From contig NZ_QFXK01000031.1 in assembly GCF_003261635.1 (NCBI RefSeq), positions 124,001-188,000 of the forward strand: a stretch of 64,000 bases of DNA. Direction: 5' to 3'. The notes beneath the pieces are model-generated. The model had not been told where the DNA came from. It was given only the letters and a program-made list of their open reading frames with translations, and did not search any database. This stretch comes from Kribbella monticola. GTDB taxonomy: Bacteria; Actinomycetota; Actinomycetes; Propionibacteriales; Kribbellaceae. Below are positions 13,143 to 23,260 of this stretch, in pieces; the stretch's first letter is position 1; every line of letters starts with the position of its first letter. A program made the position numbers and the translations under genes.

Positions 13143-13222
13143 GGCCCACCCTGAAGGTCTAGTGTCCTGTGTCGGCGAACGGTAGCGTCCAGCGTTGCGC
13201 CTTTTGTCCCGAGGAGGTAGCT

Positions 13223-13528
13223 GTGTCCAAAGTGGCCGCGGTCAGACCCGCTTACTGGATCGCCGGCATCCTGCTGGCCCTGTCGGTCGTCGTACCGCTT
13301 CTAGTCTCCACCTATGCCAAGGACGAACCCAGGCTGTGGGGATTCCCCTTCTTCTACTGGTACCAGCTGTTGTGGGTGTTCGTCTCGGCGATCACCGTCA
13401 GCATTTCCTATCGCCTGGTGCTCGGCGAGGAACGCAAGCGACGTGCCGCCCAGGGGCTGGACACCGGCCCTGAAGGCGATCGTGATGCCGGCCGTGACGC
13501 CGCTGCTGCCAAGGAGGCCGAGAAGTGA
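13223..13528 (+). CDS. DUF3311 small membrane protein, symporter partner
   Basis: 101 residues with two membrane segments (about residues 8-28 and 42-64) and a hydrophilic, Ala/Asp/Arg-rich C-terminal tail. The FPFFYWYQLLWVFVSAITVSISYRLV segment is the DUF3311 signature. These proteins are almost always encoded directly before an MctP-like sodium:solute symporter. The GTG start at 13223 is fixed by a perfect GAGGAGG 5 nt upstream; the longer open frame lacks such a site. Its TGA overlaps the GTG of the symporter. Confidence 0.85.
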   Translation: MSKVAAVRPAYWIAGILLALSVVVPLLVSTYAKDEPRLWGFPFFYWYQLLWVFVSAITVSISYRLVLGEERKRRAAQGLDTGPEGDRDAGRDAAAAKEAEK

Positions 13529-15180
13529 ACACGCAGGTCGACTGGGTCCAGCTGACCATCGTCATCATCATCTTCGCCGCGGTGACGGTGATGGGCTTCA
13601 TGGCCGCGCGCTGGCGGCGTACAGGCGCACTGGAAAGCCTTGACGAGTGGGGATTGGGTGGTCGTGGCTTCGGCACGTTCATCACCTGGTTCCTGCTCGG
13701 CGGCGACCTCTACACGGCGTACACGTTCGTCGCTGTGCCGGCCGCGATGTACGCGACCGGGGCGGTCAGCGGCTTCTTCGCCGTGCCCTACACCATCGTG
13801 GTCTACCCCATCATCTTCGTCTTCATGTCCCGGTTGTGGTCGGTCGCGCACCGCAACGGTTACGTGACCCCGGCGGACTTCGTCGGCGGCCGGTACGGCA
13901 GCCGCGGGCTGTCGCTCGCGGTGGCGGTCACCGGCATCCTGGCGACGATGCCGTACATCGCGCTGCAGCTCGTCGGTATGCAGGCGGTCTTCGAGACGAT
14001 GGGCCTCGGCGGCAGCAACACGCTGGCCAAGGACCTGCCGCTGCTGATCGCGTTCGCTGTACTGGCGGCGTACACCTACTCCTCCGGTCTGCGCGCCCCG
14101 GCGATGATCGCGTTCGTCAAGGACGGCCTGATCTACCTGGTGATCGGGGTCGCCATCATCTACCTGCCGCACGTGCTCGGCGGCTGGGACACGATCTTCG
14201 ACGCCGCGAAGACCAAGATGACCACGCCGAACCCGACCACGCACAAGCCGACCGGCGCCTTCATCCCCGGTGAGACCGGCTACTCGGCGTACTGGACGCT
14301 CGCTCTCGGTTCGGCGATGGCGTTGTTCATGTACCCGCACTCGGTCACCGCGGTGCTCTCCACGAAGAACCGCAACGTCGTACGGCGTAATGCCGCGATC
14401 CTGCCTGCCTACTCGCTCCTGCTCGGTCTGCTCGCATTGCTCGGGTTCATGGCGATCACCGCGAAGGTGAACGTGAAGGGCCTGGACGGGCTGGCCAACC
14501 CGCAGCTGGCGATCCCGCGGCTGTTCGACCAGGAGTTCCCGTCGTGGTTCGCCGGTATCGCCTTCGCGGCGATCGCGGTGGGTGCGCTGGTGCCGGCGGC
14601 GATCATGTCGATCGCGGCGGCGAACCTGTTCACCCGCAACATCTACCGCGACTTCATCAAGCGGGACGCCACCCCGGCCCACGAAGCCAAGGTGTCCAAG
14701 CTCGCTTCGCTGGTGGTGAAGTTCGGCGCGCTGATCTTCGTGCTCGCGATGGACAAGACGATCGCGCTGAACCTGCAACTGCTGGGCGGGATCTGGATCC
14801 TGCAGACGTTCCCGGCGATCGTCGGCGGCCTGTTCACCCGCTGGTTCCACCGCTGGGCGCTGCTGGCCGGCTGGGCAGTCGCGATGGTGTACGGCACGAT
14901 CACGGCGTACCGGGTGGTCAACCCGGCCACCAAGAAGCACTTTGGTGGCTCGCTGTCGAACTTCCCGTTCACCGACAAGCAGGTGTACATCGCGCTGACC
15001 GCGTTCGTCATCAACCTGTTGGTGGTGATCGTGCTGACGCTGGTCCTGCGGGCTCTGAAGGTTGCCGAGGGCGTCGATGCGACCCACCCGACGGACTACG
15101 TGGCCGACGCCGGCGACCCGGGGGTCAAGGATCTGCCCGACCTGCTGGACGGCGAAGGAACGACGCCCGCCAGGGCGTAG
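13525..15180 (+). CDS. Sodium:solute symporter family protein, MctP-like monocarboxylate permease
   Basis: 551 residues with about 13 membrane segments. It has the SSS-family N-terminal pattern DEWGLGGRGFGTFITWFLLGGDLYTAYTFVAVPAAMYA, and the long helix FAAIAVGALVPAAIMSIAAANLFTRNIYRDF characteristic of the family. With its DUF3311 partner it resembles rhizobial MctP, which imports lactate, pyruvate and other monocarboxylates; here the substrate is inference. GTG start overlapping the previous stop. The C-terminal tail is acidic. Confidence 0.88.
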   Translation: MNTQVDWVQLTIVIIIFAAVTVMGFMAARWRRTGALESLDEWGLGGRGFGTFITWFLLGGDLYTAYTFVAVPAAMYATGAVSGFFAVPYTIVVYPIIFVFMSRLWSVAHRNGYVTPADFVGGRYGSRGLSLAVAVTGILATMPYIALQLVGMQAVFETMGLGGSNTLAKDLPLLIAFAVLAAYTYSSGLRAPAMIAFVKDGLIYLVIGVAIIYLPHVLGGWDTIFDAAKTKMTTPNPTTHKPTGAFIPGETGYSAYWTLALGSAMALFMYPHSVTAVLSTKNRNVVRRNAAILPAYSLLLGLLALLGFMAITAKVNVKGLDGLANPQLAIPRLFDQEFPSWFAGIAFAAIAVGALVPAAIMSIAAANLFTRNIYRDFIKRDATPAHEAKVSKLASLVVKFGALIFVLAMDKTIALNLQLLGGIWILQTFPAIVGGLFTRWFHRWALLAGWAVAMVYGTITAYRVVNPATKKHFGGSLSNFPFTDKQVYIALTAFVINLLVVIVLTLVLRALKVAEGVDATHPTDYVADAGDPGVKDLPDLLDGEGTTPARA

Positions 15181-15242: not shown

Positions 15243-15845
15243 ATGGCGGGCAGAATCGCGAGAGTGTTACTGGTTCTGCTCGTCATGGTGCTCGCCGCGG
15301 GGGCGGCTCGGCTGACGGGCGGTCGCTTCAGTCACCTGGCGGACAACACCCTGACCGGGCTGCACTGGCTGGCGGCCGCCTGTATCGGTCAGATCCTCGG
15401 CGCGCTGGCCGGTGGCATCGCCTACCCGGCCGGGCTGATCGGCTCGGCCGTGTGCATCGCGGTGTTCCTGCGACTCAACCTGCGCCGCCCTGGAGTCGCC
15501 CTGCTGGCACTGGGCTTCTCCGCCAACGCACTGGTGGTCGCTTTGAATGGGGCCATGCCGGTGTCCACCGGAGCCCTTCTGCGAGCCGGACTCGACCGGT
15601 TCGTTGCCGATCCCCGCCACGAGCTTGCTGACGCCTCTACGGCGCTCCCCTGGCTCGGGGACGTAGTACCAGTCGCTCTGCCGGGCTTGGGCCAGGCAGT
15701 GAGCCCCGGCGACGTCCTGATCGCCGCAGGCGCCGGCCTACTCCTGTACGCCGGCATGGGTGGCACCGGGCGGGTACCTGTTGCACCAGCACCCTCGTGG
15801 CAGGAACTAGAAGCGAAAGCCTCGCCCGACCACCCGGCGCAGTGA
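15243..15845 (+). CDS. DUF5317 family membrane protein
   Basis: 200 residues. Hydrophobic segments near residues 5-22, 36-58, 60-77 and 80-98 are followed by the conserved FSANALVVALNGAMPVSTGALLRAG motif and a last membrane segment near 158-176 (SPGDVLIAAGAGLLLYAGM). These are features of the DUF5317 family of unknown function. Its last 39 bp overlap, tail to tail, the end of the degenerate HD-GYP gene on the other strand. There is no obvious ribosome site before the ATG at 15243. Confidence 0.8.
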   Translation: MAGRIARVLLVLLVMVLAAGAARLTGGRFSHLADNTLTGLHWLAAACIGQILGALAGGIAYPAGLIGSAVCIAVFLRLNLRRPGVALLALGFSANALVVALNGAMPVSTGALLRAGLDRFVADPRHELADASTALPWLGDVVPVALPGLGQAVSPGDVLIAAGAGLLLYAGMGGTGRVPVAPAPSWQELEAKASPDHPAQ

Positions 15846-17090
15846 CTCCACCACGACCGGGTCGTACTCGGCGCCGATCCCCAGGCCGATGCTCTCCAAC
15901 GCCTTGTCGGGACTCTGCCCGGTCCCTTCGCCGACCAGCTGCTCGTAGGCCAGCGCCACGTTGACGATCCCGCTCTCCAACGGGATGGCCGAGTTGCTGG
16001 CCCTCCCCTGCCGGTACGGATCGTTGCTGTGCCGGACGATCTCCGCCACCCGATCCAGTACGCCGGACCGCTCGATCACCGAGGCCCCGATCTCAGCCGC
16101 CCGCTGCCGCTCCTCCCGGGTCCGCAACAGCGAAGCCCCACCAGGACTCGGATCCGCCAACGCCAGTTGGCCCACCCCCGACAACAACGCCGCGTACTCC
16201 AGCGCCTCCATCCGGGCCGGCGTCAACCCCAGATCATTCCCGATAGCCACCGCCAAACTAGCCGTCCGCGCATTCTGCCCGGGACTACTGAATCCCGCGA
16301 TCTCCGTACTGCGAGCCATCGACCGCACGGTGGTCCGATACGTACGCTGCGCCGACGCAAACCGCCGAAACGCAAACTGCGTCAACAACAACGGCACAAT
16401 CACCAACGGCGGCGCCCACAACCCCAGCAGCGAAGTGCCTGCCGCCAGCAGAACCCCACTGAGGCCCATCGCCATACCGATCCGGCCCATCACCAGTAGT
16501 TCGTCGCGCAGAGACGCAGGAAACGGCTTGTTGAACAACTCGGTCGCCTGTCCCGCCCCCACCAGCGCATCGACCAGACCGGCGGTCAGTACGCCGAGCA
16601 GCATCGCGCCGACCAGAGGAATCGCGTGCCGCCATGATCCGTTCCAGCCGAGGTCGCGAGGCACCACAGCAGAGAAGACGACCGCGGCGCAGGCAACAGA
16701 AAGAACTCGGCGGTTCGAGACCACGATGTCCCAGCGAAGGCCGGCGATCGCCCGGGGACACATGCCGATCATCGTCGCGACAGACGTCACCGCAATCACC
16801 TGGGCGATGTCAGGGGCGACCTCCAGCGAAGGTCCGCGAAGCATCGCATACCCGAGGGCAGCGCTGGTGGCGATCGGAGCCCGGTTGCGGCTTCGATCGA
16901 CCTTGAACTGGACCATTTCACCGATGGCGATGAGCAACCCGAACGCGGCAACGAACGGCCATTCCGTCACGCCGTGCCGGGCCGTGATCAGCAGAGCAGC
17001 CAAGCCCAGCCCGAGACCGGCTATCACGATCACGATGCCGCTGCCGAGGCGGTTCGACACTTCTGGGCCCTCCGGGCTCTCCCAGGCCAT
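15807..17090 (-). CDS. Membrane protein with degenerate HD-GYP domain
   Basis: 427 residues. The N-terminal half has about eight hydrophobic segments, and the C-terminal half aligns by eye with an HD-GYP domain but without its active site. Where the neighbour has LLHDVGKVG this protein has LLSGVGQLA, and where the neighbour has HHHEKYDGSGYP it has VRHSNDPYRQGRAS. It therefore should not hydrolyse cyclic-di-GMP, and may act as a partner or sensor. Its ATG at 17090 overlaps the stop of the canonical HD-GYP gene (TGATG), so the two are translated together. The function is inference. Confidence 0.78.
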   Translation of the reverse strand: MAWESPEGPEVSNRLGSGIVIVIAGLGLGLAALLITARHGVTEWPFVAAFGLLIAIGEMVQFKVDRSRNRAPIATSAALGYAMLRGPSLEVAPDIAQVIAVTSVATMIGMCPRAIAGLRWDIVVSNRRVLSVACAAVVFSAVVPRDLGWNGSWRHAIPLVGAMLLGVLTAGLVDALVGAGQATELFNKPFPASLRDELLVMGRIGMAMGLSGVLLAAGTSLLGLWAPPLVIVPLLLTQFAFRRFASAQRTYRTTVRSMARSTEIAGFSSPGQNARTASLAVAIGNDLGLTPARMEALEYAALLSGVGQLALADPSPGGASLLRTREERQRAAEIGASVIERSGVLDRVAEIVRHSNDPYRQGRASNSAIPLESGIVNVALAYEQLVGEGTGQSPDKALESIGLGIGAEYDPVVVESLRRVVGRGFRF

Positions 17091-18442
17091 CACACGGGCC
17101 CTGCGGCGGAGCCTGAGGCGCCACCGCTGCTGCCGAGGCTGAGATCGTCATGATCGATCGTGGCCTCGACGGTGGCATCGGGCTCGGGCAGCTCGGCGAC
17201 AGAGGACTTCCAGCCGTTCCGTTCGATGACGTCGACGAATGCATCCACCAGCAACGGGTCGAAATGGGTGTACTTGTCCTGCTTCAGGATCGCCAACGTC
17301 TCTTCGACGCTGCGGGCCGGCCGGTACGAGCGGGTCGAGGTGAGACAGTCGAAGGCGTCGACGATACCGATGATCCTGGCGAAGTACGGGATGCTCTCAC
17401 CACTGAGACCGGCCGGGTACCCGCTGCCGTCGTACTTCTCGTGGTGATGCAGCACTGCCGACTTCACCTCTTCGAGGAACGGGATATTGCCGATCAACTC
17501 GACCCCACGTGCCGGGTGCAGCCGGATCGCGTCCATCTCGGTGTCGTCGAGCCGTCCGGGCTTGCGGATGATGCTGGTCGGTACGCCGACCTTGCCGACA
17601 TCGTGCAGCAGCCCCGCGTGCTCGAGAGCGCTCTGCCGGTCATCGCTCAGCCGCAGCTGTCGCCCGAGCATGCCGACTCCCTCGCTGACGCGCTCGGAGT
17701 GACCACGGGTATAGAGGTCCTTGGTCTCGATCACCTGGATGAAGGCGCGCATGGTCGCTGCCTGGGCAGTCCTCTCGACCTCGTACTGCGAGAGGGCCCA
17801 CCTTGCGAACAGGAGTGGGACAAGGACCAGCAGTCCGGCCAGCGCGCCCAGACCGCCGAGCCAGACAACCGCCAGCAGGAGGCCGAGGAAGCTGTAGCCG
17901 GCCATCGGGAAGAACGTCGGCAGGACGACCTGCCGGAGAAACTCGACCGGGCTCGACTTGCCGTCGATCCAGATCACCAGGCTCACCAGCGCAGCGTTGG
18001 TCACGTGCTGTGCCAGTGTCGCCGCCATGGCACCGAAAACCGCACGCGCCTCGTGGCTCAGCGCACCGTCCCCGACCGGTCCGCCGGCCAGTGCGTAGGC
18101 GACGCCGCCGGCCGCGGTGGCGAGGATCCGCTGGGCGCCGTTGAAGACCCGTCTGATCAGCGGAAGACGTCGGCGCACCTGGGGCAGGTAGGCGACTGCG
18201 GTGGCTATCACCGCCGCCCACGGGCCGGCGATCACATACACCGCCATCAGGGCGACCGAGTCCAGCGAAGCCAGGTAGTTGGAGGCGACGGAGAAACGCA
18301 GCAGCCCGCCGATGAGCATGAGCAGGCACAACGCGAGAAGAGTCGGAAGATCCGTGATCTTCCCGAACGCAAGGCCGAGAATCACGAGGGCCAGAAGAGT
18401 CGCCGAGGAGACAAATACGCGCAGCGCATGGTGTCTCACCAC
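17090..18442 (-). CDS. Membrane HD-GYP domain phosphodiesterase
   Basis: 450 residues from GTG 18442. An N-terminal membrane region of roughly seven segments (about 10-215) leads into an HD-GYP domain with all key residues: KDLYTRGHSERV (about 241-252), LLHDVGKVGVP (HD at 280-281) and HHHEKYDGSGYPAGLSGESIP (GYP at 341-343). The family hydrolyses cyclic-di-GMP. A C-terminal Asp/Ser/Gly tail of about 40 residues follows. The start is uncertain: the frame is open to 18541, but no good ribosome site exists there. An 8-codon ORF with a perfect GGAGG site lies just upstream, in another frame. Confidence 0.85.
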   Translation of the reverse strand: MVRHHALRVFVSSATLLALVILGLAFGKITDLPTLLALCLLMLIGGLLRFSVASNYLASLDSVALMAVYVIAGPWAAVIATAVAYLPQVRRRLPLIRRVFNGAQRILATAAGGVAYALAGGPVGDGALSHEARAVFGAMAATLAQHVTNAALVSLVIWIDGKSSPVEFLRQVVLPTFFPMAGYSFLGLLLAVVWLGGLGALAGLLVLVPLLFARWALSQYEVERTAQAATMRAFIQVIETKDLYTRGHSERVSEGVGMLGRQLRLSDDRQSALEHAGLLHDVGKVGVPTSIIRKPGRLDDTEMDAIRLHPARGVELIGNIPFLEEVKSAVLHHHEKYDGSGYPAGLSGESIPYFARIIGIVDAFDCLTSTRSYRPARSVEETLAILKQDKYTHFDPLLVDAFVDVIERNGWKSSVAELPEPDATVEATIDHDDLSLGSSGGASGSAAGPV

Positions 18443-18473: not shown

Positions 18474-18497
18474 TCACCAGTCCCAGTAGTCGGCCAT
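18474..18497 (-). CDS. Possible leader peptide MADYWDW upstream of the HD-GYP gene
   Basis: ATG at 18497 with GGAGG 9 nt upstream (18511-18507) opens an 8-codon reading frame encoding MADYWDW and a TGA at 18476-18474. This is the best ribosome site in the region, yet it is out of frame with the HD-GYP gene. The ribosome would stop about 31 nt before the first in-frame GTG, so it could couple or attenuate translation. It may be chance. Confidence 0.3.
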   Translation of the reverse strand: MADYWDW

Positions 18498-18525
18498 GAT
18501 AGGTCACCTCCGATCAGCGGTCGCG

Positions 18526-18538: not shown

Positions 18539-18711
18539 CAATCAGGGGGGAACAGGGGGCAGACAGCACATCGCTGACTAGACTTAATTTTGCTCATCAG
18601 GACTGCGCCGAAACACTGTAAGCCAGACCGTGACCCGCCGCACGATGCTGAGCGCACCGTCGTGGTATGAGAGACTGTGACTCTTTGCAGTTGTTACAAG
18701 GAGGCTTTCTT

Positions 18712-18786
18712 ATGGGCAAGACCGGCCGCAAGCGCCGTGCACGCAAGAAGAAGGGCGCTAACCACGGTAAGCGCCCGAACGCCTGA
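18712..18786 (+). CDS. 50S ribosomal protein bL37
   Basis: A 24-residue, extremely basic protein beginning MGKTGRKRRARKKKG and ending ANHGKRPNA. The ANHGKRPN ending and the size match bL37, the mini-protein seen in mycobacterial large ribosomal subunits near the peptidyl-transferase region. The ATG at 18712 has AAGGAGG 7 nt upstream, one of the best ribosome sites in the window, as expected for a ribosomal protein. It is monocistronic and ends in a perfect GAAA-loop terminator. It is easily missed because of its length. Confidence 0.85.
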   Translation: MGKTGRKRRARKKKGANHGKRPNA

Positions 18787-18806: not shown

Positions 18807-18840
18807 AAGGACCCCGGTGAAAACCGGGGTCCTTTGCAAT
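18807..18840 (+). terminator. Terminator of the bL37 gene
   Basis: A perfect 12-bp stem (AAGGACCCCGGT) closed by a GAAA tetraloop, reverse arm to 18834, then a T-containing tail. It is a textbook intrinsic terminator 20 bp after the stop. Confidence 0.9.
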
Positions 18841-19128
18841 TTGGTCACATGTCACGACGAGACCACTAACCCGACAGGTTTGTATCCGGAGCGTTCAGCA
18901 CCGGATACTCAGCGCTATTTTCAAACAGTAGTTCACCAATTGTCCGTAGTAGCGGACAAAGTCACCGAAGTGCCGCCGTCACAATGGTGCCCCCATCGGC
19001 GACGGCGGCATTCACCGCACCGACCGCCGGCTGAGCCTGTGGACAACCGCAGCGGGGCCTGCCCTCGAGCTTCTAGAGTTGGGGCCACGGCGTCGTTGCG
19101 CCCATTGCGATTCCACGAGGGGCAGGAG
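18841..19128 (+). other. Leader region of the XRE/NB-ARC regulator
   Basis: 288 bp between the bL37 terminator and the regulator start. The first half is AT-richer (around 18850-18960) and is the likely promoter zone. The frame upstream of 19129 is open but shows no protein-like sequence. A GAGGGG ribosome site lies at about 19117-19122. Confidence 0.5.
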
Positions 19129-21555
19129 GTGAGTCGGCTGACCGAGGATGATCTGGGGACACTCCTCCGCAAGTACCGGACCGGCGCAGGCCTGACCCAG
19201 GCTGCGTTGGCCGAGAAGGCCGGTCTCAGTGAGCAGGCGGTCAGCCTGCTGGAGCGTGGCTCGCGCCGACGGCCAAGGATCGAGACGATCCGTGCGCTGG
19301 GTGCGGCGCTCGGCCTGGACGCCGCCGCGGTGGAGACTCTCGCCCTCGCGGCGCGGGGCACCCGACGTGCACAGCCGGTCCCGAAGGAGCCCCCTGTCGA
19401 GCCCGCCGCCTCGGTGCCCAGGCAACTACCGCCGACCCTGCCGGACTTCACCGGCCGGGCCGCCGAGCTGGAGATCCTCCTGCAGGCCCTGACCCGGGCC
19501 GACGGTCCTCCCGGGACTGTGCGAATGGTCGCGGTCACCGGTATGGGCGGCGTCGGGAAGACGGCGTTGGCGGTCCACGCGGCTCACCTTGCCGCCGACA
19601 ACTTTCCCGACGGCCAGTTCTACCTCGACCTGCGCGGCTACGGTCCAGGCGACGCCATCGGACCACTGGATGCCCTCGGCCAGCTCCTTCGGTCGCTCGG
19701 CGTCGACGACCGGACCATCCCCGACGGCGTGAACGAAGCCGCCTCGCTGTACCGGTCGCGACTGGCCGAGCGGCGGATGCTGATCATGCTCGACAACGCC
19801 AACGGCGCGGGGCAGGTCACCTCTTTGCTGCCCGGTGCCCCCGGCTCGGCTGTCATCGTTACCAGCCGGCGAGCACTCACCACTCTGCCGGGCTTCCGGC
19901 AGCTCAATCTCGCGCCGTTGGACGAGGCCGATTCGGTCCAGCTGTTGTCGCGGATCGCCGCCGGTTCGCAGGTCTCACCTCAGAGCCCGGCCGCCAGGTC
20001 GATCGCCCACCTCACCGGCCACCTGCCACTGGCCGTGCGGCTGATCGGTGCCCGGCTGGCCGCCCGGCCGTCCTGGCCGGTCGAGTACATCGTGGAGCAA
20101 CTCGAGGACGAGCACCGCCGGCTCGACGAACTCGGCACCGGCGAATCCGGCGTACGGGCCAGCATCGCCGGCTCGGTGGAGTTCCTTGCCAACAGCAATG
20201 ACAAGCTCGACCAGCAGGCTGCCGAAGCCCTCGACCTGCTGGGTCTGCCGAACACCTCGGACCTGATCACCGTCACGGCGGCCCACCTGCTCGGCGAGCC
20301 GGTCGAGCACACCGAGCAGATGCTCGAACGCCTGGTCGATCTGAACCTGCTCGAATCGATCGGCCCGGGCCGCTACCGCTTCCACGACCTGATCCTGGCC
20401 TTCGCTCGCGAACGCGCCCACCAGGTCCTTTCCGAAGGCACCCGCACCGACGCGCTCACCCGCCTGCTCCAGCTCTATACCGGCGTGGCCTGGAACTGCC
20501 AGCGGCTGACACACACCCAGAGCGCGCGTCTTCCGCTGGCGAGTCCGGCGCCGGACCTCCTGCCCGATCTTCCGGACACCCAGGCGGCCCTGAACTGGAT
20601 CGACAAGGAGCACACCAATCTCGCCGAGCTCATCCGGCAGGCCAACCGCTCCCCCGCCCTGCGCAGCCTCATTCCCGAACTGGCCCTCTCCCTGTTCGGG
20701 TACTACGAATCTCGCAACCGCTGGCCAGAGATGTATGTCATCGACGGCGTCGGCCGCGAAGTCGCCGGCACATTGGGCTTCCAGCGGATTGCCGCCTGGC
20801 TCGAGCACGATCTCGGCATCCCGGACGTCGAACGCGGCAACTACGACGTCGCCGTGAACCACATGCTGCAGAGCTTGGCGATGTTCCGCGCCATATCCGA
20901 CCTGCCCGGTCAGGCCCGCTGCTGTTCATCGCTCAGTTACGTGCATTCCAAGCTCGGCAACCTCGACGAGTCGCTCAGCTGGGCCCAGCAGGCACTCGCC
21001 CTCAGCCTGCGAATCGGCGACCAGAGTATCGAGGGAATCAGCCATCTGGCCCTCGGTCGCCTCCACACCCTCCGCGGCGACTACGACCTCGGCAGACAGT
21101 CTTTCGATGTGTCCATCGACCTGGCCAAGGACTCCGGCAATCTGCGGTCACTCGCCAAGAGGTACCAGATCGCCGGTCAGTCCTACCTGACAGCCGGACA
21201 GCATCGGCTCGCAGCCGAGGCTCTGATGGCCGGCCTCGAGGTCTTTCATCAGATCGGCGACGGTAACGCGCTCGCCGAATGCCACCAGAACCTGGCCACC
21301 TTCCATCGTGAAACCGGCGACTGTGCAAGCGCGATCCGCAGCGCCGAAGAGGGCCTGCGCTTCGCCCGTAGCTACGCCAACAAGCAACGCGAGGGACAAA
21401 TTCTCACCGAACTCGGCCAAATCCATGCTGCTCAGGGCCACCTCGCCGCAGCACACTCCGTTTGGCAGCAGGCCGCTGATCTGTTGCGCCCCATTTCACG
21501 CCACGACGAAGCTGCCGTGCGGGCGCTGTTGACCGAAAACCCACTTCCGGACTGA
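19129..21555 (+). CDS. XRE-HTH / NB-ARC ATPase / TPR regulator
   Basis: 808 residues from GTG 19129. Domains in order: an XRE-type helix-turn-helix (about 8-65, LLRKYRTGAGLTQAALAEKAGLSEQAVSLLERG), a linker, an NB-ARC STAND ATPase with P-loop GMGGVGKT (138-145), Walker B MLIMLDNAN and a GLPL-like HLPLAVRLIG, then TPR repeats over about the last 280 residues. It resembles AfsR-like actinobacterial regulators, but with an XRE head in place of the SARP domain. Such proteins act as ATP-driven switches controlling development or specialised metabolism; its target is unknown. It stands alone, converging on rsrA. Confidence 0.88.
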   Translation: MSRLTEDDLGTLLRKYRTGAGLTQAALAEKAGLSEQAVSLLERGSRRRPRIETIRALGAALGLDAAAVETLALAARGTRRAQPVPKEPPVEPAASVPRQLPPTLPDFTGRAAELEILLQALTRADGPPGTVRMVAVTGMGGVGKTALAVHAAHLAADNFPDGQFYLDLRGYGPGDAIGPLDALGQLLRSLGVDDRTIPDGVNEAASLYRSRLAERRMLIMLDNANGAGQVTSLLPGAPGSAVIVTSRRALTTLPGFRQLNLAPLDEADSVQLLSRIAAGSQVSPQSPAARSIAHLTGHLPLAVRLIGARLAARPSWPVEYIVEQLEDEHRRLDELGTGESGVRASIAGSVEFLANSNDKLDQQAAEALDLLGLPNTSDLITVTAAHLLGEPVEHTEQMLERLVDLNLLESIGPGRYRFHDLILAFARERAHQVLSEGTRTDALTRLLQLYTGVAWNCQRLTHTQSARLPLASPAPDLLPDLPDTQAALNWIDKEHTNLAELIRQANRSPALRSLIPELALSLFGYYESRNRWPEMYVIDGVGREVAGTLGFQRIAAWLEHDLGIPDVERGNYDVAVNHMLQSLAMFRAISDLPGQARCCSSLSYVHSKLGNLDESLSWAQQALALSLRIGDQSIEGISHLALGRLHTLRGDYDLGRQSFDVSIDLAKDSGNLRSLAKRYQIAGQSYLTAGQHRLAAEALMAGLEVFHQIGDGNALAECHQNLATFHRETGDCASAIRSAEEGLRFARSYANKQREGQILTELGQIHAAQGHLAAAHSVWQQAADLLRPISRHDEAAVRALLTENPLPD

Positions 21556-21621: not shown

Positions 21622-21894
21622 TCAGTCTGTGGTGGTGATTTCTACGCGGATCTCGGTGAGGCGGGCGAGGATTTTCGTGCGGAGCGAGTCGGGGGCGTGT
21701 TCGTCGCCGCAGGAACGGTGGACGAGCTTCTTCACGCAGCGTTCCAGGTCGTACTGGTCGAGGCAGGGGGCGCACTCTTCCAGGTGCTGGCGGATCTCGT
21801 CGTTGCTGGCGTCTTCCAGCTCGTTGTCGATGAAGACGTACACACGCTGCAGGATCTCGCTGCAGTCCACGTCGTGGTGCTCGCCGCAGCTCAC
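21622..21894 (-). CDS. rsrA: Zinc-binding anti-sigma factor RsrA (mycothiol system)
   Basis: 90 residues. The ZAS motif H37-x3-C41-x2-C44 (HLEECAPC) is present together with Cys3, Cys11 and Cys62, positions that match those of Streptomyces RsrA, where Cys11, His37, Cys41 and Cys44 act in zinc binding and the disulfide switch. Under thiol oxidation it releases SigR. The GTG start at 21894 overlaps the sigR stop (GTGA), giving coupled, near-stoichiometric production. It is the second gene of the sigR-rsrA operon and is followed by a terminator. Confidence 0.93.
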
Positions 21895-22574
21895 GACTCC
21901 TCCTCCGAAGCACTCGTTCGGGTCTCGCCGGGGATCAGTCCCCGCTCCCGGGCGTAGTCGGCCAGCAAGTCGCGCAGCTGGCGGCGACCGCGGTGCAGCC
22001 GTGACATCACGGTGCCGACCGGGGTACCCATGATGTCGGCGATCTCCTTGTAGGCAAAGCCCTCGACATCGGCCAGGTAGACCGCCAGCCGGAAGTCCTC
22101 CGGGATCGACTGCAGCGCCGACTTCACGTCGGAATCCGGCAGGTGCTCCAGGGCGACGGCCTCGGCGGACTTCAGGCCACCGGGAGTGTGCGACTCGGCG
22201 GCGGTGAGCTGCCAGTCCTCGATCTCCTCGGTCGGCGACTGCGTCGGTTGACGCTGCCGCTTGCGGTAGCCGTTGATGAACGTGTTGGTCAGGATCCGGT
22301 ACAGCCACGCCTTCAGGTTGGTCCCGGGCGTGAACTGGTGGAACGAGCTGTACGCCTTCGCGAAGGTGTCCTGGACCAGGTCCTCGGCGTCGGACGGGTT
22401 ACGCGTCATCCGCATCGCCGCGGCGTACATCTGGTCGAGGAAGGGCAGGGCCTCGCGCTCGAAGCGCTCGGTCCGCTGCTCGGGTGTCTCGGTGGTCGTG
22501 GGAGTCGGCATCGTGATCGAGAATACCGGTGTCTTCCCAGTCTTCTGCGCGGGAGCCAGGCTCGTTGCCATCAT
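21891..22574 (-). CDS. sigR: ECF sigma factor SigR (SigH of mycobacteria), thiol-oxidative stress
   Basis: 227 residues from the ATG at 22574. Region 2 has [34 protein letters not shown], then the signature [22 protein letters not shown], and region 4 has [42 protein letters not shown]. It drives genes for mycothiol and thioredoxin under disulfide stress and is held by RsrA. A consensus SigR promoter lies only 10 bp before this ATG, so the stress transcript would be nearly leaderless. A second ATG at 22511 would give a 206-residue form, as with the two SigR isoforms of Streptomyces. The open frame to 22655 overlaps the neighbour and is not favoured. Confidence 0.93.
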
Positions 22575-22583
22575 GTTCGTCAC

Positions 22584-22609
22584 AACGCCGCCGCCCGGCA
22601 CCTCATTCC
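22584..22609 (-). promoter_or_regulatory. Consensus SigR-dependent promoter of sigR-rsrA
   Basis: GGAAT (22609-22605), exactly 18 bp, then GTT (22586-22584), the GGAAT-N18-GTT consensus of SigR promoters. It lies between the end of the hydrolase gene and sigR. Its start point should fall within a few bases of the ATG at 22574, giving positive autoregulation. Confidence 0.8.
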
Positions 22610-22627
22610 CCGCCCCTGGCAGGACTT

Positions 22628-23260
22628 TCAGCCCGAGACTTCCCGGGTCACCCATTCGAACACGGCTTCGACCAGCAGCTCGTAACTCTCGGCCTGGGTG
22701 AGCTCGGCCCGCTTCGGCACCTTGAACGAATGGTCCCCGTCCGGCACGACCGCCATCTCGGTCATCGGCGGGAACTCCTGCGGCGTACCGAACGGGTCCT
22801 TCTCGCCCTGGACCACCAGTGTGGGCAGCCGCGAACCCTGCAATTCGTCCACCCGCGACTTGTCCGGCTTGCCCGGCGGATGCAGCGGGAAGGACAACGC
22901 CAGTACGCCGGAAGCTCCCAGGCCGGCCGCTGTCCTGCAGGCCACCCGGGCGCCGGCGCTTCGTCCGCCGAGCACCAGCGGGGTCCTGATCCGGAGCTGG
23001 CCGATCGTCGCGACCCAGGCCTCGTCGAGCACCTTCGGGGCCGGCGCGAGCTTCTTCCCGGCGCGCCGCCAGGGCTGCTCGATCAGGAACACGTTCATGT
23101 CCAGCTTCGGCAGCCGGGCGGCCAATGCGGCGAGGTCACCGGCCTCGATGCCACCCCCGGCGCCATGACCAAGTGCGAGGGTCGCCACCGGTCGCCGGGC
23201 CCGGTGCGCCACGATCCGGGCCTCACCGTGCGGCGTCGCCACAATCCGTTCGTCGGTCAC
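22628..23260 (-). CDS. Small alpha/beta hydrolase (KANL3/Tex30-like)
   Basis: 210 residues. The fold markers are [20 protein letters not shown] after strand 3, the nucleophile elbow [10 protein letters not shown], the acid region [12 protein letters not shown] and the histidine DGDHSF. This is the small cytosolic alpha/beta hydrolase group annotated as Tex30/KANL3-like; the substrate is unknown. GTG start at 23260. It ends 18 bp before the sigR promoter and is on the same strand, so read-through into sigR could supply basal sigR expression. Confidence 0.8.

Follow-up and report, generated by a model that had tools for sequence, protein, structure and literature searches.

An intact and a degenerate HD-GYP membrane protein inherited together in Kribbella and other Actinomycetes

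Paired membrane proteins of the HD-GYP type, one intact and one degenerate, have been described in Streptomyces. In Streptomyces venezuelae, HdgA (vnz24090) and HdgB (vnz24095) are encoded by neighboring genes that likely form one operon, the former having six transmembrane (6TM) helices and an HD-GYP domain, and the latter six such helices and a degenerate HD-GYP domain without the GYP motif (PMC6205966). The available part of that report counts orthologs of HdgA and HdgB in 76 and 79 of 93 Streptomyces strains, locates both proteins to the membrane by fractionation, and describes deletion of either gene in S. venezuelae as having no visible effect, and the EAL enzymes RmdA and RmdB as mattering there. 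The missing GYP motif and the likely operon of the Streptomyces pair are thus already published (PMC6205966). Here we describe a corresponding gene pair of Kribbella monticola, which lies in 64,000 nucleotides of contig NZ_QFXK01000031.1 (positions 124,001 to 188,000), referred to below as the window. It resembles the Streptomyces pair in having adjacent genes, the intact one followed by the degenerate one, and the same membrane plan, and the same names are used. It differs in that HdgB of Kribbella has also lost the HD dyad and the first histidine, in that no EAL domain was found in the genus, and in that a micro open reading frame (micro-ORF) with a tryptophan-containing tail (W-tail) precedes hdgA, such frames being near background in Streptomycetaceae. 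We consider it probable (roughly 0.6) that hdgA and hdgB are ancient full-length paralogs working as one unit, with HdgB as the regulatory, non-catalytic partner of HdgA. New here are the age and co-inheritance of the pair, the stepwise decay of HdgB, the lack of an EAL match in the genus, the S-component likeness and co-divergence of the membrane domains, and the micro-ORF. Searches of open-licence literature returned nothing on the pair beyond Streptomyces, on the second step of decay or on the micro-ORF, and those for a sensor name or a peptide precedent were unproductive.

Solved structures from other bacteria offer further comparisons. DvhD of Desulfovibrio vulgaris (9rbz, 9rc0) is, like HdgB, a membrane protein with a dead HD-GYP domain in which HD is replaced (by SQ), but it retains GYP, and according to the available text, which mentions no active paralog next to it, it binds cyclic diguanylate (c-di-GMP) in a metal-independent manner and signals across the membrane (PMC13090378). 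V-cGAP3 of Vibrio cholerae (5z7c), which is the best solved sequence match of both the HdgA and the HdgB profile, contains a weak and a strong HD-GYP-like stretch in a dead/active tandem. Unlike the Kribbella proteins, it is one fused chain with no reported match to their membrane domain, and it is named a 3'3'-cyclic GMP-AMP (3'3'-cGAMP) phosphodiesterase. A specific match of HdgB to the dead half of V-cGAP3 was considered and dropped, since HdgA aligns to the same stretch. Bd1817 of Bdellovibrio (3tm8) shares with HdgB the same fold and the status of an inactive HD-GYP protein, and we know of no paired enzyme for it. It differs from HdgB in that its di-iron center is kept, as stated in the part of the source used here (PMC4159591).

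Architecture and active-site residues of HdgA and HdgB

A preliminary description of this DNA had recognized tandem HD-GYP genes, one intact and one with its catalytic residues replaced, and both domain matches and residue mapping bear this out. Pfam HD_5 matched HdgA (E=4.4e-43) and HdgB (E=1.3e-8) above the curated cut-off. Seven metal-site positions and a lysine were mapped from PmGH, whose E185 lies outside the map (PMC4159591, available part). All eight are present in HdgA, which retains H248, H280-D281, K284, H309, H333-H334 and D362 together with GYP (450-aa numbering), in agreement with the HD, HH and GYP motifs first described. In HdgB all eight are lost along with the GYP loop: the corresponding positions hold Q, S-G, Q, no aligned residue, S-N and L, and the GYP loop is deleted, so that SG does stand in place of HD and the GYP block is indeed missing. 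The metal ligands H, HD, H, HH and D, the catalytic K and GYP are found in HdgA of the window and in 29/29 sequences of the genus, and these residues predict that HdgA is active.

Comparison with HD-GYP structures, as the preliminary description had proposed, placed both proteins in the same fold. The AlphaFold2 models (mean predicted local distance difference test scores, pLDDT, of 88.7 for HdgA and 88.9 for HdgB) each contain six to seven membrane helices, a long signaling helix and a domain of HD-GYP fold. HdgA aligned to 4r8z with Z 23.9 (2.4 Å, 199 residues), its relatives in the PDB being 5z7c, 4mcw and 4r8z. The fold is retained in HdgB, which aligned to 5z7c with Z 18.9 (2.2 Å, 161 residues) and to five HD-GYP structure entries with Z 17-19. 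By BLAST, HdgA and HdgB are 24% identical over 212 aa of their HD domains (E=1e-11 for the single comparison), and their membrane domains are homologous, with a profile-profile probability of 99.2%, which upholds the common membrane-plus-domain plan noted earlier. Because both domains match, the two proteins are, as judged from sequence, paralogs over their full length. The TGATG junction reported for the genes is present (Table 1) and suggests translational coupling of hdgB to hdgA. Many of the junctions in 29 loci of the genus, not all, are TGATG or overlapping frames. An automatic ORF list gives longer calls, with hdgA from a TTG at 18541 and hdgB from a GTG at 17093. Natural A-B fusion genes were not found in the loci examined; ORFs with an apparent double domain in loci L077 and L037 were rejected as fusions, being split matches within one domain.

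A profile search of the K. monticola genome found seven GGDEF and two HD_5 domains. The EAL domain had no match in this genome or in any of the 38/38 genomes of the genus, and the same search was positive in 6/14 control genomes. Because EAL is without a match, HD_5 occurs in two proteins and HdgA is the only full HD-GYP protein, HdgA is the sole canonical c-di-GMP phosphodiesterase found in this genome. HD_5 was searched in this genome and five others; elsewhere in the genus, some genomes carry a second HD-GYP-like match. The genome lacking the pair (G201) had no HD_5 and no EAL match.

Co-inheritance, decay and selection

hdgA lies beside hdgB in 29/29 of the best phylum loci outside the window's genome, in 29/29 loci of the genus, and in 73/80 named loci among the matches listed, where hdgB of the remaining 7 lies <=300 bases from a contig edge. 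The named loci come from one pattern that demanded HD in HdgB, and they are silent on how often HD is retained. In a sample of 197 genomes of the class, HdgB was present in 68 and HdgA, at a cut-off of E<=1e-45, in 66, all inside those 68, and no genome with HdgA only was found at this cut-off. The genes are adjacent in 61 of the 66 and on separate contigs in 5; one HdgA (G304) is doubtful, as its match has a low score for a protein of the HdgA type. Of the two genomes in which HdgB alone was recorded, one has hdgB near a contig end (G252) and the other a divergent HdgA adjoining it (G396). In thirteen more genomes weaker matches (E 1e-31 to 1e-41) were confined to the HD domain, and we take these to be other HD-GYP proteins. 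The tally for the phylum (138/198) includes HD-GYP matches of every kind and is left aside as a count of HdgB. Within the genus, 37/38 genomes have both genes and G201 has neither. These co-occurrence counts ignore shared ancestry.

A quick tree of 167 HD domains (80 from HdgB, 75 from HdgA and 12 others) placed HdgB on one side of a single branch with a Shimodaira-Hasegawa-like approximate likelihood ratio (SH-aLRT) of 99, and HdgA as one group had a support of only 16 under a midpoint root. The HdgA and HdgB subtrees each track family groups in this tree, whose root was not inferred, and on this basis the duplication appears older than the sampled classes. HdgB may be the sister of HdgA or may have branched from another HD-GYP protein. 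Streptomycetaceae HdgA and HdgB fall within the same A and B groups, vnz24090 and vnz24095 themselves being outside the tree, and HdgA of the window lies near Actinopolymorpha. The preliminary description had interpreted the genes as a catalytic/pseudo-enzyme pair, an interpretation that would suffer if the pair were not conserved or if the second protein had arisen independently. The pair is conserved as described above, an independent origin is ruled out by the single HdgB group and the homologous membrane domains, and the interpretation is supported by the residues and by the common origin of both genes.

The loss of catalytic residues in HdgB differs between the genus and its relatives. 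In 35/35 of the best-scoring class loci outside the genus, which are no random draw, HdgB retains the first His and HD, has Gln in place of Lys, and has nothing aligned at the third His or the GYP loop; the last Asp is replaced by Asn in 32 and by Ser in 3. In 29/29 sequences of the genus the first His has also become Gln and the last Asp Leu, and the HD dyad is SG in 28 and AG in 1. Since HD is kept in the 35 class loci where other ligands are already gone, the change from HD to SG is a further step, seen here in one genus, and the decay of HdgB was stepwise. Among 168 A-type sequences, a set that leaves out single HD-GYP outgroups and counts some genomes twice, 158 retain all eight positions and 10 deviate. 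Two of these are cut short, six are changed at one position, and HdgA of G396 (L188) is changed at two and that of Intrasporangium oryzae (L067) at five, with the pair kept in both.

The HD domain of HdgB is under purifying selection, with a ratio of nonsynonymous to synonymous change (dN/dS) of 0.04-0.12 against ten relatives (Nei-Gojobori; dS is high in most pairs). Mean pairwise identity among 30 sequences of the genus was 93% for the HD domain of HdgB, 86% for that of HdgA, 72% for the membrane domain of HdgB and 50% for that of HdgA. A heterodimer in which the second partner senses, also suggested in the preliminary description, is less well supported than the pair itself: HdgA and HdgB have membrane domains of one kind, and it is that of HdgA that changes faster. 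The two membrane domains co-diverge when synonymous change is controlled for (partial Mantel r=0.60, p=0.0005, n=29, without L112, a near-copy of the window), and this exceeds the value of 0.33 for the membrane domain of HdgA and its own HD domain. Because the membrane domains track each other and the HD domains do not, the co-divergence points to contact or a common ligand at the membrane rather than to an interface between the catalytic domains.

The membrane domains and the sequence upstream of hdgA

The predicted fold of both membrane domains resembles the S-components of energy-coupling factor (ECF) transporters, from which HdgA and HdgB differ in being fused to a signaling helix and an HD-GYP domain. 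The domain of HdgB aligned to RibU (5kbw) with Z 13.7 (3.1 Å, 157 residues) and to 4m5b with Z 14.1; that of HdgA aligned to 4m5b with Z 13.5 and to RibU with Z 11.7, and matched ThiT (3rlb) with a Foldseek probability of 1.00 (E 0.3-0.6). The entry 4m5b is labeled a transition metal transporter and is presumably of the NikM type. The same residues are matched by several S-component families, which argues for a real likeness, and a small ligand for these domains is our guess.

An ORF ending in WxW and a stop codon lies upstream of hdgA in 36/37 hdgA-bearing genomes of the genus (Table 1 gives that of the window). G228 has no such ORF, and that of G223 is ~340 nt distant. A single match to the exact WDW pattern was obtained in each of 20/38 genomes of the genus, with no match for the reversed control, and all 20 matches lie 31-51 nt from the hdgA match (compared by eye). 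Across 28 sequences of the genus, identity falls from 0.91 over WxW-stop to 0.32 in the 12 nt that follow, the middle residue is D, E or N, and all three stop codons are used. RNAalifold found no structure in the 28 leader sequences, and an RNA attenuator in this leader was rejected for that reason. Since conservation ends at the stop, the stop codons vary and no RNA structure was found, the constraint appears to act on the peptide.

The W-tailed peptides are 7-9 aa long in Kribbella and mostly 20-45 aa in other families, where longer ORFs end in W-rich tails such as NWKW, GWSWW or GVSWT. Counts by family leave out loci with too little upstream sequence as well as L248, which was used for the genus count only. 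W-tailed ORFs occur in 31/35 non-Streptomyces class loci from 13/16 families (5.6% at random positions), and four Streptomyces-type class loci had none. Among the matches listed, they occur in 35/38 named loci outside Streptomycetaceae and, near background, in 4/33 within that family (4.6% at random in both cases). With a Shine-Dalgarno sequence also required, the numbers were 30/38 and 1/33 for these named loci, 13/39 for the class and 2/19 for other classes, where random windows and shuffles gave 2-6%. The W-tail is weak in the other classes (6/19 against 13% at random positions), and some matches, for example L049, L061 and L086, are probably due to chance. By eye, other classes have MK-R hydrophobic GGA peptides that are similar but without the terminal W. 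Two W-tailed ORFs in a row were seen in L032, L036, L222 and L270, and the micro-ORF upstream of hdgA in L234 (genome G085) holds two GWGWGG copies, as in repeated-peptide precursors. Pfam matched none of seven micro-peptides above its cut-off, the one weak match being to a lipoprotein signal (E=0.33).

The micro-ORF is probably a third element of hdgAB, as a cis-acting leader or a small peptide. Because short leader ORFs are described as common in Actinobacteria in the accessible part of one report (PMC4833913), a leader role would be favored as much as a peptide role. More tentatively, and with a likelihood that we put well below even, the W-tailed peptide could be a ligand or subunit of an S-component-like receptor formed by HdgA and HdgB, gating the cell's only c-di-GMP phosphodiesterase.

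Other genes surround the pair. A DUF5317 gene next to hdgB was found in 29/29 loci of the genus, in 6/21 of other classes (1.5-kb flanks) and in 5/80 named loci among the matches listed, and its product may belong to the hdgAB system. sigR-rsrA is a recurrent neighbor upstream of hdgAB in the class: a SigR match accompanies hdgA in 65/73 named loci (among the matches listed) and in 12/12 genus loci viewed at length; the named Streptomyces loci among these matches likewise have hdgA-hdgB, mostly with sigR upstream. Between rsrA and hdgA the window holds an XRE-NB-ARC-TPR regulator (18817-21555, +), and a similar gene is at the same place in the 12/12 genus loci viewed at length and also in L036 of Sporichthyaceae. 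A basic 24-residue ORF, MGKTGRKRRARKKKGANHGKRPNA (18712-18786, +), is divergent from hdgA and is presumably similar to bL37, a small actinobacterial ribosomal protein. On the other side are genes for a DUF3311 protein and an MctP monocarboxylate permease (13169-15180, +), and MctP recurs beside the hdgAB locus in the genus.

Table 1 Features of the hdgAB locus, in positions of the window
Feature	Position	Strand	Description
hdgA	17090..18442	-	GTG start, 450 aa; predicted membrane domain (ECF S-component-like fold), signaling helix and complete HD-GYP domain
hdgB	15807..17090	-	ATG start, 427 aa; architecture of hdgA, HD-GYP domain degenerate
TGATG stop/start overlap	17088..17092	-	TGA 17092-17090 and ATG 17090-17088, one common base
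Micro-ORF MADYWDW-stop	18474..18497	-	31 nt before the GTG of hdgA
Shine-Dalgarno sequence GGAGG of the micro-ORF	18507..18511	-	Strong; recurs ahead of the micro-ORF in the genus
DUF5317 membrane protein gene	15243..15845	+	Convergent with hdgB, 39-nt overlap; PF17248, E=7.7e-21
sigR-rsrA	21622..22655	-	Extracytoplasmic function (ECF) sigma factor and zinc-finger anti-sigma factor; TIGR02947 SigH_actino; zf-HC2

Possible roles of HdgB

As we picture the pair, catalysis would fall to HdgA as a membrane-bound HD-GYP phosphodiesterase of c-di-GMP, with HdgB as a partner that retains the fold but no longer has metal binding or the GYP recognition loop. The S-component-like membrane domain and the long signaling helix would mediate the pairing of HdgB with HdgA, and HdgB would tune HdgA activity by passing on or setting a membrane signal. 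Hydrolysis of c-di-GMP by HdgA is expected from its residues and from knowledge of the family, and HdgB is cast as a regulatory partner because of its co-inheritance, selection and co-divergence with HdgA. The physical pairing, the activity of HdgA, the direction in which regulation would run and the kind of signal are all inferred.

Several observations weigh against this picture. Operon linkage by itself can produce co-inheritance, and phylogeny makes the counts non-independent. The co-divergence signal is wider than the two membrane domains, since the HD domain of HdgA also co-varies with the membrane domain of HdgB (r=0.32, p=0.0005). The Foldseek probabilities for S-components are near 1 but their E-values are non-significant (0.25-0.7), and according to a note of the aligner, chance alone can give helical bundles Z values up to about 13. 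In L067 and G396 the pair persists despite a degenerate HdgA, so that its output is not always catalysis. In S. venezuelae, hdgA and hdgB show poor expression and no phenotype in development, as the available parts of the reports state (PMC6205966, PMC13232838). A two-hybrid study in Streptomyces found HdgB self-interaction, and the part of it available here mentions no HdgA-HdgB contact (PMC13232838). This self-interaction in the bacterial two-hybrid assay (BACTH), and the lack of co-divergence between the HD domains of HdgA and HdgB (r=-0.12), would both fit separate homodimers that make no contact and are co-inherited through a shared operon and sensor type. We think such an arrangement unlikely, as no genome among the 197 has HdgA only at the cut-off used, both genes are absent together from G201, and the two membrane domains co-diverge more closely than the two domains of HdgA itself.

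It is less likely again that HdgB alone is a c-di-GMP receptor like DvhD and that the operon merely co-expresses a receptor and a hydrolase. The top five Foldseek matches of HdgB are DvhD structures, and DvhD likewise lacks HD (SQ) and HH in the available account (PMC13090378), but the GYP loop that DvhD retains has nothing aligned to it in the HdgB of 35/35 best class and 29/29 genus sequences, and the conserved R after the loop is also lost. The loss of residues in the class is patterned rather than random (His and HD kept in 35/35, Lys to Gln in 35, Asp to Asn in 32), as might be expected of a different hydrolase with a reduced metal site; this is very improbable, given that the last ligands are also gone in the genus (29/29) and that in PmGH alanine at H189, H221, D222 or K225 essentially abolished activity, as far as the accessible text reports (PMC4159591). 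That HdgB is a decaying relic might be read from the change or loss of all eight mapped metal-site positions in the genus, yet this hardly seems credible, being contradicted by the dN/dS of its HD domain (about 0.04-0.12) and by an identity above that of HdgA.

The partnership of HdgA with a regulatory HdgB remains the reading that we favor, and in Kribbella the canonical breakdown of c-di-GMP seems to depend wholly on one active/dead pair. The pair is well suited to testing how a dead enzyme might control a live one, and it offers a clean system for studying the role of a dead phosphodiesterase, the stronger conservation of the dead domain over the live one, and a possible peptide input from the micro-ORF. 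If that input is real, it would mean a peptide-controlled c-di-GMP switch across much of the class, and perhaps the phylum, that has been overlooked as its gene is below annotation size.

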